A stretch of DNA of 40,980 nt. It comes from Nitrososphaerales archaeon. GTDB lineage: Archaea; Thermoproteota; Nitrososphaeria; Nitrososphaerales; CADDZS01. Under the pieces are notes generated by a model. The model saw only the letters and a list, made by a program, of their open reading frames with translations. It searched no databases and was not told where the DNA came from. The position numbers and the translations under genes were made by a program. Positions 1,936 to 40,928 of the stretch are shown here, in pieces. The DNA lies in assembly GCA_030037995.1 (NCBI GenBank), contig JASHPQ010000174.1, positions 1 through 40,980 of the forward strand, given 5' to 3'. How positions within the stretch are numbered: the stretch's first letter is position 1; every line of letters begins with the position of its first letter.

Positions 1936-3285
1936 TCACTGCACCCACGCGTCGATGAGCTCGACGGGGATCTTGAATTCTTTTGGGGGGAGGAGATACC
2001 TGTGAAGCGGTCTTGTCAGGTGCCGGTGGGCTTTCATAGGAGGCATGTAAAGTTTCGGCGAGATTGATCTTTTTCTCTCAATTCTTGTCTTCTCACTTGT
2101 CTTTGAGGAGTACGAGCATTTCTCACACGCAAAACCCTGATTCTTGCCCTTCGATTTCAAAGCCACGTTACAAACAGGGCATTTCGGGTTGGCGAGGGTT
2201 ACGAGCGACTGTAATCTCATGGGCTTGAGCAGCTCAAGGTTTAGCATCTTTGGGTGGAGCGAGGTTGGTTTCCTAATCCCACCGGAGGCCTCGATAATGT
2301 CGCCTCTCATCAATCCAGCCGCTGCTTTTCTAAATTCCGCCGTCGGCTCGTAGCAAGCGCATGAGATTTCCCCCTTGGCATTAGCGATTTTGAAGAAAAC
2401 GTGGCCCCCTCTCTCAATCATTGGATCCTCGATTACCGATCCCACGACGGTTCCCGACGAATAAGGCATCGCATTGTTGAGATCGAGCCTGTGAGCAAGG
2501 TGTTCCCCCGTGCCTTGGTTGGATCTGAAAATCATGTAACCCAGCAGGTTTCCGATTGGAAGCAGATCTCGAAACGCCTCGGAGACCCCTTCGGGAGTCT
2601 CGCCGCGTATGCCACACAGTACCGGATCCGGCCCGTGCGGCAAAATCATCACCCTGCGATGATCCCGATCGTAATTGCTGAACGTCTCCGGAAATCTCCG
2701 CTCACTCATCCTAACAATTTTATCTAGCTCGATGTGCCTCTTCCTACGCGCCTCCCGTCGGTAAGCAATCAGCTCGAACGTGTGGTCATTTCTAAGCAGG
2801 TTACCGATCGAAGCTAAGGCGCCGACCAATCCCTGGCCGTTGCGCAGTTCATAGCTGTCCATTCTAAATTTCCCCACGATAGTCCTTGCCTCTCGAAGGC
2901 TCATCACTGAGAACAAGGCTCTCGTTGCAAATTCCTCTACTTCGTTCGGAATCGCCAGGCCCTCGTGCAACACCAGCCCGGAATTTGCGCGAGGACTCGT
3001 CGCAAACTCCTTTATGATATTTCTAAAGAATTCAAAAACGGCTTCTCTTGATAGGGTCGTCCTGATCGCGAGACAGAGAGCTGCGTTCCCCCTCGTCTTC
3101 CATGGAATGTTCGGGTTCAGTCTGATCAGATGCGGGTAATCGAGGAGCTCCGTGATTCCCTTTTTCTTAAGCAATCTCTTTACCGCGGAATAACACAGAA
3201 AAGTGGTACACATCCCATCGCTGGAATCCGTGTCGTCAAAGCCGACGTGAAAGAAGTTGTAGCCTTGATTCATGTTGCACAGCAT
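1936..3285 (-). CDS. tiaS: tRNA(Ile2) 2-agmatinylcytidine synthetase TiaS
   Basis: The 449-residue protein begins with FHVGFDDTDSSDGMCTTF, the hallmark of TiaS, which uses ATP to attach agmatine to C34 of the tRNA-Ile CAU anticodon so that it reads AUA codons. The order is as expected: N-terminal kinase-like DDTDS domain with NIPWKTRGNAA (about 55-67), the central ferredoxin-like region, an OB-fold (about 275-345) and a C-terminal zinc ribbon with CPVC and CEKC (about 365-395). Length is normal. Two in-frame ATGs (3285 and 3273) are possible starts. It lies 41 bases downstream of the Lrp-like gene on the same strand and may share its promoter. Confidence 0.93.
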   Translation of the reverse strand: MLCNMNQGYNFFHVGFDDTDSSDGMCTTFLCYSAVKRLLKKKGITELLDYPHLIRLNPNIPWKTRGNAALCLAIRTTLSREAVFEFFRNIIKEFATSPRANSGLVLHEGLAIPNEVEEFATRALFSVMSLREARTIVGKFRMDSYELRNGQGLVGALASIGNLLRNDHTFELIAYRREARRKRHIELDKIVRMSERRFPETFSNYDRDHRRVMILPHGPDPVLCGIRGETPEGVSEAFRDLLPIGNLLGYMIFRSNQGTGEHLAHRLDLNNAMPYSSGTVVGSVIEDPMIERGGHVFFKIANAKGEISCACYEPTAEFRKAAAGLMRGDIIEASGGIRKPTSLHPKMLNLELLKPMRLQSLVTLANPKCPVCNVALKSKGKNQGFACEKCSYSSKTSEKTRIERKRSISPKLYMPPMKAHRHLTRPLHRYLLPPKEFKIPVELIDAWVQ

Positions 3286-4679: not shown

Positions 4680-4973
4680 GGTATGAGCAGGCGAGCGGGT
4701 CTCGGAGAACTTCTGAGGAAACTCCTCTGTCCACGCGGAAAAATCACGGCGCTGAGAAGCGCAATCAGAGATGGTTGGCTACAAAACAGAAACGATATCC
4801 AATCCAGATCACACGAGGATGCAGAAATGCTGAGGTTCCTGGTGCGGAATGAAACGGTTGTCCCGTGCGGACAAAGGCCAAACAGGGGAACGATGATTTC
4901 CGCAAGAGCCCCAGGTAGGCCGCATAGCTGAATCCCGCCTAAAACAGAAAGAGGGTTACTACCTGCACGTACC
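4680..4973 (+). ncRNA. rnpB: RNase P RNA, archaeal type
   Basis: This is the catalytic RNA that removes 5' leaders from pre-tRNAs. Conserved region I is seen as GAGGAAACTCC at 4715-4725, the CR-II/III type element as ACAGAAACGAT at 4786-4796, and CR-V as ACAGAAAGAGGG from 4944. The ends form helix P1: GGTATGAGCAGG (4680-4691) pairs with CCTGCACGTACC (4962-4973) at 11 of 12 positions counting one G-T. Helix P4 forms from AAC (4720-4722) plus CCTC (4724-4727) with GAGGGTT (4951-4957), leaving T4723 as the universally conserved bulged U. Length of about 294 bases is normal for archaea. Ends are set by P1 and could be off by a few bases. The minus-strand frame over this interval is a shadow. Confidence 0.9.
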
Positions 4974-39232: not shown

Positions 39233-39386
39233 TTTGTAGAGCTCATGTCATCCTAATAAGACTTCAAACGCCAATCGTTGTACCGAGTGCCGTAACAAGA
39301 CTACAATGGAAGCTCATCGGATCGTCAAGTTCTGAGCTAAATGTGGTAAAGTGCTCCGGCCGGGATTTGAACCCGGGTCAGTGACT

Positions 39387-39442
39387 CTCGAGTCTCCCCT
39401 TGACCTTGTGCACGAGGGAAGATGTCTCCCCGTTAAGTTAGA
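39387..39442 (-). other. tRNA-Glu intron 2, canonical anticodon-loop position 37/38
   Basis: About 56 bases. Exon bases CTCTCG pair with CGAGAG (39390-39385) across the splice sites, and inside the intron TCTTCCCT (39422-39415) pairs with AGGGGAGA (39400-39393). Splice points may be off by one or two bases. Confidence 0.75.
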
Positions 39443-39460
39443 CGAGAGGCCACTATGCTT

Positions 39461-39508
39461 TTCCGTCAGGTTCCGACGAAATCAGAATTAATATTCCAGC
39501 GGAACCCA
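39461..39508 (-). other. tRNA-Glu intron 1, non-canonical D-loop position
   Basis: About 48 bases inserted after the D-loop GGCC. GGTTCCG (39506-39500) pairs perfectly with CGGAACC (39475-39469), and exon TCCG with CGGA next to the 3' site gives a relaxed bulge-helix-bulge. Exact ends are uncertain by a few bases. Confidence 0.72.
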
Positions 39509-39551
39509 GGCCGGACTACACCACCGGAGCTCTTTGTACACCGTTTGGAAG

Positions 39552-39776
39552 TTATTCCCCGCCGAGGATATTCTTTGCTGCAAGCCTCACGTCTGAGGCT
39601 TTCACGGTGTGTCTTCCAGCGTGAAGCGATAGTTCGATCGCGCTTTTCGCAACGCGATTTGCAACGTCCTCGACTACCCTCCGAAGCTCCTCGGCCGCCT
39701 CGTCACTCACACGTTCGGCCCCCGATTTTTTGATAATTCGGTAAACTGCAGCTAGGCCGAATTCTGTTTCGGACAA
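39552..39776 (-). CDS. Archaeal histone
   Basis: The 74-residue product SETEFGLAAVYRIIKKSGAERVSDEAAEELRRVVEDVANRVAKSAIELSLHAGRHTVKASDVRLAAKNILGGE (in segments) is a single histone fold: helix 1 at LAAVYRIIKKSG, long helix 2 from DEAAEELRRVV, helix 3 from KASDVRLAAKNIL, with the RVS and HTVKASD loops that hold DNA. It dimerises and wraps DNA. The frame is open upstream, but GAGGAG at 39786-39791, nine bases before the TTG at 39774-39776, sets the start. It is divergent from the geranylgeranyl reductase-like gene and lies 21 bases upstream of tRNA-Glu. Confidence 0.94.
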   Translation of the reverse strand: MSETEFGLAAVYRIIKKSGAERVSDEAAEELRRVVEDVANRVAKSAIELSLHAGRHTVKASDVRLAAKNILGGE

Positions 39777-39785
39777 AAGTGAATT

Positions 39786-39791
39786 CTCCTC
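39786..39791 (-). promoter_or_regulatory. Ribosome binding site deciding the histone TTG start
   Basis: Minus-strand GAGGAG nine bases before the TTG at 39774-39776; the longer upstream frame would add residues unlike any histone. Confidence 0.6.
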
Positions 39792-39908
39792 AGAAACGAA
39801 ACCGACTCCCGGAGCGTATTTTAGCTTTGAGCGTTGGGACGTAAAAAGCAGAAATACGCATGTGACCAAAATCGGCCTGACTTTTTTCTGTGAGGAGTCG
39901 TTAAGGAT

Positions 39909-40928
39909 TTGCACATAGCGGTCGTGGGTCTCGGGGTTGCGGGGAGTTACTTACTGAATCGCCTCAGCCAAGAGCACGACGTCACTGGTTACGAAATGCA
40001 GAAGGAGGGAGAATTCCAGGCGGTCTGTGCCTGGGGCACGTCAAAAAATGAACTGAGGAAGTTCATGCACCCCGTGGGTGTTGATTTTGACAAATATGTC
40101 CTCTTTGACGGTAAGGAGATGATCGTCGACGTTGGAAAGGGGAATTTTCGCAAGATTCCTCTAATCGGCTTGGTCACATACGACAAGCACCGGCTAGAAG
40201 CAGATCTGACGAGAGGGAAGAAGGCGAAATTTGGGGTTAAGGCGACTCCGTCCCTGCTGAAGGACGAAAATTATGACATGATTATTGACTGTACGAGCAT
40301 ACATCGGGCATTTCTCCCCAAGGTGCAAGAGGATCTCTGGGTCCCGTGCGTGGAGTACCGAATGGACTACGGCAAGGACCGCACGCCGTACAAAGACTTC
40401 TTCATCAAACCCTTTCAGGGGCTGAGCGGGTATTTTTGGTACTTTCCGCTGGAGGATGGCCTCGCATACGTGGGGGCGGGCGATTTTCAAAAGCGACACA
40501 ACGAATTTCTGGACAATTTCAATTCTCAAAATCCTGGCAAGGTCTTGAAGAAGATTGGCAGACCCATCCGGATATCGCCGCCTAAATATTGCGAGCCGTT
40601 CTACATCGGGAACGTGGTGGGCTGCGGGGAGTCGATTGGGACTGTTTTTCCGCTATTAGGCGAGGGAATAATTCCGAGCCTCCAGTGCGCCGATCTTCTT
40701 TGCCGAAACCTGACGGATCTTCCGGCATATCGGAAGGCCGTCTTGGAAAAATTCGAGTACTTCAACTACGTCTATGATATTATCAAACTCAAGTTCGCCG
40801 GCAAGTTCAGCATGGTAAAGCACCTGCCATTGATGTTGAAGACCTACCGAGAAATGAAGAAAATGGAAGACCGTTTTGGTCTCGAAGTCCGGATGGCTGA
40901 CTTTAAGGAAATAATATCTAACTCATAA
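39909..40928 (+). CDS. Geranylgeranyl reductase-like FAD flavoprotein
   Basis: The 339-residue protein starts at TTG with HIAVVGLGVAGSYLLNRLSQEHDVTGYE, a Rossmann FAD-binding motif (GxGxxG, acidic end at E29). Later come DMIIDCTSIHRAFLP and the second FAD motif region NVVGCGESIGTVFPLLGEGIIPSLQCADLL, typical of the GGR family, which saturates isoprenoid chains of archaeal lipids or other prenyl groups. The GAGEA-type pattern appears as GCGESIGTVFPLLGEGI. Substrate unknown; other p-hydroxybenzoate hydroxylase-fold oxidoreductases are the alternative. It is divergent from the histone gene. Confidence 0.85.
   Translation: MHIAVVGLGVAGSYLLNRLSQEHDVTGYEMQKEGEFQAVCAWGTSKNELRKFMHPVGVDFDKYVLFDGKEMIVDVGKGNFRKIPLIGLVTYDKHRLEADLTRGKKAKFGVKATPSLLKDENYDMIIDCTSIHRAFLPKVQEDLWVPCVEYRMDYGKDRTPYKDFFIKPFQGLSGYFWYFPLEDGLAYVGAGDFQKRHNEFLDNFNSQNPGKVLKKIGRPIRISPPKYCEPFYIGNVVGCGESIGTVFPLLGEGIIPSLQCADLLCRNLTDLPAYRKAVLEKFEYFNYVYDIIKLKFAGKFSMVKHLPLMLKTYREMKKMEDRFGLEVRMADFKEIISNS

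Follow-up and report, generated by a model that had tools for sequence, protein, structure and literature searches.

A stretch of 40,980 nt from a Nitrososphaerales archaeon (here called the window, meaning the whole of the DNA analysed) contains on its minus strand a 179-nt segment, 39530–39352, whose two ends are the strands of a 7-bp acceptor stem, GCTCCGG...CCGGAGCA. What interrupts this gene, and in what order could the interruptions be removed to yield a tRNA? The initial annotation had proposed a tRNA-Glu(CUC) gene that reads as a tRNA once about 48 bases in the D-loop and about 56 bases after position 37 are taken out. This was borne out: removal of 104 nt leaves a 75-mer, and ARAGORN called the joined exons as tRNA-Glu(ctc) with a complete cloverleaf. 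ARAGORN found no tRNA in the unspliced window, and neither did an Rfam search at gathering thresholds, which reported archaeal RNase P as the sole RNA. The silence of both programs on the raw sequence is expected, because the gene carries, by our prediction, three introns.

We consider it highly probable that this is a functional, apparently single-copy tRNA-Glu(CUC) gene whose three BHB introns (intron 1 in the D-loop, 2a and 2b in the anticodon loop) are cut by an (alpha-beta)2 endonuclease and the exons joined by a ligase, with 2b leaving before 2a. The features of the locus, all on the minus strand, are as follows.

39552–39914, minus: archaeal histone gene (Pfam CBFD_NFYB_HMF), 21 nt upstream of the tRNA
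39509–39530, minus: exon 1 (positions 1 to 20a), with the acceptor 5′ strand, D-stem 5′ strand and most of the D-loop; identical in seven copies bar T/C at position 16; boundary as in intron-free orthologues
39461–39508, minus: predicted intron 1, 48 nt, D-loop; strict BHB with 3/4 central pairs; shuffle test 23/3000
39443–39460, minus: exon 2, with the D-stem 3′ strand, anticodon stem 5′ strand GTGGC and loop CTCTCG with anticodon CTC; invariant in seven copies
39445–39448, minus: CTCT within exon 2, the partner of GGAG
39424–39442, minus: predicted intron 2a, 19 nt, at the canonical site 37/38; each of the seven copies has 4/4 central pairs
39387–39423, minus: predicted intron 2b, 37 nt, abutting 2a; 3/4 central pairs here; compensated stem; shuffle test of the split 10/3000
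39352–39386, minus: exon 3, with A38, anticodon stem 3′ strand GTCAC, variable loop, T arm, acceptor 3′ strand and discriminator A73; invariant in seven copies

Two other architectures were ruled out. The introns are not self-splicing group I or group II elements: no Rfam group I or II intron model (ribozyme covariance models) matched at gathering or relaxed threshold, and the introns are merely 19–48 nt long. Nor is this a split or permuted tRNA, since the three exons lie in order inside 179 nt.

The host assembly (G000) is a draft metagenome-assembled genome of 3.3 Mb in 323 contigs, estimated at 88% completeness and 5% contamination. The nearest named genome by CTP synthase is the Nitrososphaerales MAG JASHOD01 (76% identity), with Nitrososphaera and relatives next, which places the host's kin in the Nitrososphaerales (Thaumarchaeota), not the Thermoproteales. 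Elsewhere, the window encodes the archaeal RNase P RNA (4683–4970, plus strand, 191 bits in Rfam) and TiaS, the modifier of the tRNA-Ile2 wobble base (1936–3285, minus strand).

Orthologous genes and exon boundaries

Orthologous tRNA-Glu(CUC) genes were found as seven copies in six genomes of one Nitrososphaerales family (G000, two in G001, and one each in G003, G006, G007 and G008); being mutually related, the copies are not independent observations. All seven share the exons GCTCCGGTGGTGTAGYCCGGCC / AAGCATAGTGGCCTCTCG / AGTCACTGACCCGGGTTCAAATCCCGGCCGGAGCA with a single difference, T or C at position 16, in both G001 copies. The introns have diverged in sequence and length, and their insertion sites are the same throughout. 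Among tRNA-Glu genes, only the UUC gene was seen in three further genomes of the family (G002, G004 and G005), where the CUC gene may be absent or may fall in assembly gaps. The two G001 copies lie on separate contigs (G001:C1 and G001:C145; L013, L033), each beside its own histone gene, and their introns differ; a mixture of strains or a duplication may account for the pair. In G008 (C66, L014) a partial second exon 1 precedes the tRNA by about 107 nt, beside a run of N and overlapping the histone end; this is probably a scaffolding artefact, and possibly a tRNA fragment.

Orthologues in sister families (G022, G013 and G028) have no introns, for example GCTCCGGTGGTGTAGTCCGGTCAAGCATAGAGGCCTCTCGAGCC, and lie directly downstream of a histone gene orthologous to that of the window. 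Because these intron-free genes adjoin the same histone gene, they fix the exon boundaries with no need to assume a fold, and the change can be read as intron gain. The histone neighbour proves the positional orthology of the tRNA genes. The arrangement is widespread in the order: a histone gene with tRNA-Glu(CUC) 16–106 nt downstream of it, both on one strand, occurs in many families, at least six besides the host's. This conserved neighbourhood suggests that the two genes may be transcribed together.

A draft genome of this completeness and contamination invites the thought that the locus arose by misassembly or is a decayed pseudogene carrying insertions. We regard this as very improbable: near-invariant exons stand against diverged introns in seven separately assembled copies, the position beside the histone gene is conserved, and the host assembly offered no other tRNA-Glu(CUC) gene. 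The initial annotation had named a second, uninterrupted tRNA-Glu(CUC) gene as what would speak against its proposal; none was found in the 88%-complete assembly, which contains only two tRNA-Glu 5′ exons, those of the CUC gene and of a UUC gene.

Three predicted introns at two sites

Introns were assessed by a BHB test, which asks for a 4-bp central helix between two 3-nt bulges. The custom BHB-aware parser at times shifted boundaries or over-split introns, and boundaries from intron-free orthologues were therefore preferred. In the host gene, introns 1, 2a and 2b have 3/4, 4/4 and 3/4 central pairs, respectively; most other copies have 4/4. In intron 1 (39508–39461), exon CCGG (39511–39514) pairs with intron ACGG (39463–39466), and an inner stem of seven perfect pairs, as first annotated, joins GGTTCCG (39500–39506) to CGGAACC (39469–39475). 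The inner stem of G001 reads GATTTCG/CGGAATC, a compensated change. With cuts placed two bases into the 3-nt bulges, exon CCGG and intron CYGG give 4/4 central pairs in five copies and 3/4 in G000 and one G001 copy (G001a). Shuffled sequences matched the observed score in 23 of 3000 trials for the host and in 0–13 of 3000 for the six others, and since so few match it, the pairing exceeds chance. An alternative intron of 50 nt, one base off on each side, reaches 4/4 central pairs in the host; it was rejected, as the resulting D-loop would differ from the one seen in the intron-free orthologues.

The initial annotation proposed two introns. Its 48-nt D-loop intron holds; its single intron of about 56 nt in the anticodon loop does not, and the comparative BHB evidence resolves that insert into two abutting introns of 19 and 37 nt, so that the gene has three predicted introns. 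Read as one intron at position 37/38, the insert forms only 0–1 of 4 central pairs in every copy. When it is split after GGAGAN, intron 2a forms 4/4 central pairs with exon positions 32–35 in all seven copies, GGAG (39426–39429 in the host) pairing with exon CTCT. The same split gives intron 2b 4/4 central pairs in five copies and 3/4 in G000 and the other G001 copy (G001b); in the host, CTCG (39389–39392; family motif CTYC) pairs with the GGAG of 2a at three of four positions. Equally good two-intron splits arose in 10 of 3000 shuffled host inserts and in 0 of 3000 for each of the six others. Intron 2b also contains a stem, TCTTCCCT/AGGGGAGA. When the conserved segments are aligned without gaps, 94.9% of cells in the 2b structure are paired and two pairs have changed on both sides; slid versions reach 27–47%. 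The helix of 2a is invariant in the seven copies, which is consistent with pairing and carries no covariation.

The single-intron reading, in which the D-loop intron is joined by one 56-nt intron excised in a single step with CTCTCG paired to CGAGAG, has several points in its favour. The pairing does exist in the host, appearing in its MFE fold; total length and mature product would be identical; and relaxed motifs suffice for (alpha-beta)2 enzymes (PMC6379350). The pairing joins the exon to A38, G39 and the four intron bases that precede them, and it is confined to the host: the CGAGAG site reads CCAGAG, CAAGAG or TCATAG in the six other copies, so this pairing, though real, is neither conserved nor a splice motif. 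With the insert failing the BHB test in all seven copies, and with the conserved GGAG...CTYC and the compensated 2b stem left unexplained, we judge a single 56-nt intron quite unlikely.

The initial annotation placed the gene in the context of non-canonical introns. That description fits the D-loop intron. The anticodon-loop insert sits at position 37/38, the canonical archaeal site, so the D-loop intron alone among those of the gene is non-canonical by position.

Proposed order of excision and the splicing endonuclease

The two anticodon-loop introns share one pairing strand. In the precursor, GGAG at the 3′ end of 2a would pair with CTYC at the end of 2b and form the BHB needed for 2b to be released. 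With 2b excised, the same GGAG would pair with exon CTCT (positions 32–35) and form a canonical BHB releasing 2a. The introns would be excised by an (alpha-beta)2 splicing endonuclease and the exons joined by a ligase. A BHB arises at each step under one order alone, 2b and then 2a: folding after removal of 2a leaves 2b in a loop without a BHB. Thus 2b would have to leave before 2a, because loss of 2a removes GGAG, the partner that 2b needs.

Thermodynamics does not by itself dictate this order. The inner BHB in the precursor lies 0.9–4.1 kcal/mol above the MFE, near-optimal and not the MFE itself, and in G003 and G006 a competing outer helix is energetically better; for both reasons the order rests on motif logic. 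Boundaries, conservation, pairings and the two endonuclease subunits can be read from the sequences; from them we infer splicing itself and the order 2b then 2a, the latter from motif logic, not stability. The G003 and G006 precursors, together with the relaxed motifs taken by (alpha-beta)2 enzymes (PMC6379350), lend something to a looser scheme in which the precursor already contains the outer CTCT/GGAG helix, with 2b as a free hairpin next to it, any bulge may be cut, and 2a and 2b leave in either order or together. On the route that loses 2a first, however, 2b has no BHB and an unspliced remnant would result. The inner BHB is moreover conserved, and it is needed only if 2b is cut while GGAG is still present. 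We therefore think removal in either order, or of both at once, unlikely, and retain 2b before 2a. Stepwise intron removal as such is already known: the authors of tRNAscan-SE 2.0 described closely spaced archaeal introns where the BHB of one can form only after its neighbour has been removed (PMC8450103). That is also the likeness to our case. Here, by contrast, the introns abut at one tRNA position, share a pairing strand and are conserved in two genera.

The initial annotation expected dependence on an endonuclease of relaxed specificity and proposed looking up its subunit type. The host genome agrees with that expectation, encoding two PF01974 proteins on separate contigs, C313 (L008) and C234 (L009). 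The C313 protein aligns over its full length with crenarchaeal catalytic alpha chains (best matches 2cv8, 3p1z, 3ajv and 2zyz_B) and retains Tyr/His/Lys plus a lysine aligned with K44 of A. pernix in the crenarchaeal loop. The C234 protein has no His at the aligned catalytic position and can be read as a structural, non-catalytic beta subunit. The loop lysine has been tied to broad specificity, and (alpha-beta)2 enzymes tolerate relaxed motifs (PMC6379350); alpha2-beta2 enzymes have been assigned to Thaumarchaeota (PMC4090602). The genome thus encodes both subunits of a relaxed-specificity endonuclease of the (alpha-beta)2 type, with activity and assembly predicted.

Interrupted tRNA genes across the family

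The tRNA-Glu(CUC) gene is not alone in being interrupted. The host tRNA-Glu(UUC) gene (G000:C313, from 16508, plus strand; L237) has a 58-nt T-loop intron between TTCAAA and T, with 4/4 BHB central pairs. Several relatives also have a tRNA-Glu(UUC) gene with a T-loop intron. The Rfam tRNA model recovered seven genes in the host, each interrupted and 89–120 nt long, and 5–23 genes per genome in the host's family versus 12–41 in the other families of the order. We also gathered host tRNA genes by a T-loop pattern, an approach that misses those with T-arm introns. In a heuristic parse, each of the 21 genes whose T arm is intact was interrupted, with precursors of 89–246 nt, and no uninterrupted tRNA gene was detected in the host assembly. 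The BHB-aware parse put the number of introns at one to about four per gene, figures that are estimates.

In six genomes, the best parse of tRNA-Arg(UCG) has abutting D-loop introns, with exon GCAT, shared GTGC and inner GCRT (L178 and L263 on G000:C234; L264–L268 in relatives); the inner element is weaker in G007 (GCAA). As parsed, these tandem introns follow the same shared-strand design as those of tRNA-Glu(CUC). The host tRNA-Ser(GGA) gene (G000:C179; L143/L245) has a 246-nt precursor with at least three introns, three sites being backed by relatives, and possibly a fourth. We found no archaeal tRNA with four introns in the open-access literature, where three per gene is the stated maximum (PMC4033280). 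Transposition of introns between host tRNAs was unsupported, the best cross-gene similarity being 23 against a shuffle maximum of 24.

Heavily interrupted archaeal tRNA genes have precedents. Pyrobaculum calidifontis has 71 introns in 46 tRNA genes (PMC8450103), including a pre-tRNA-Glu(UUC) with three (PMC4390854), and intron transposition has been reported in Thermoproteales (PMC4033280). The likeness to that order lies in up to three BHB introns per gene, at canonical and non-canonical sites, and an (alpha-beta)2 endonuclease; the differences are another phylum-level lineage, another isoacceptor, and host tRNAs with no sign of shared similar introns. Non-canonical introns occur in Thaumarchaeota in such numbers that tRNAscan-SE has a separate model for them (PMC8450103). 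In the soil Asgard archaea Atabeyarchaeia and Freyarchaeia, 92–95% of tRNA genes have introns and more than half of the genes have several (PMC11291895). There, as here, nearly all tRNA genes are interrupted, many by multiple introns and often at non-canonical positions; the lineage, however, is unrelated, and the proportion compares with 21/21 intact-T-arm genes in our heuristic parse. In Caldiarchaeum subterraneum, heterogeneity of tRNA-Thr(GGU) reflects recent gain of a second intron, associated with a gene fragment and a mobile element (PMC3293823). Recent gain of an extra tRNA intron is common to both cases; in ours it is read from intron-free positional orthologues. The tRNA-Glu(CUC) gene itself is well supported, and three-intron archaeal tRNAs are known; the conserved pair of introns sharing a strand is its most distinctive part.

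The recurrence of this design in two unrelated tRNAs leads us to propose, tentatively and as something short of probable, that the family carries recurrent "relay" intron pairs, in which a second intron at the splice site of the first borrows its strand, making excision strictly ordered, and that such pairs have been kept across genera in the Glu-CUC anticodon loop and the Arg-UCG D-loop. If true, relay pairs would hint that introns are preferentially gained at spliced BHB sites themselves, and the design may permit four introns in one gene, as in tRNA-Ser(GGA), beyond the stated maximum. The locus offers a clean, conserved example, open to testing, of tRNA splicing that would be ordered by a shared strand, one in which orthologues without introns at the same genomic place make intron gain readable. 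This Nitrososphaerales family extends the short list of archaeal groups whose tRNA genes are heavily interrupted, and its genes show why such genomes seem poor in tRNAs to standard scanners.
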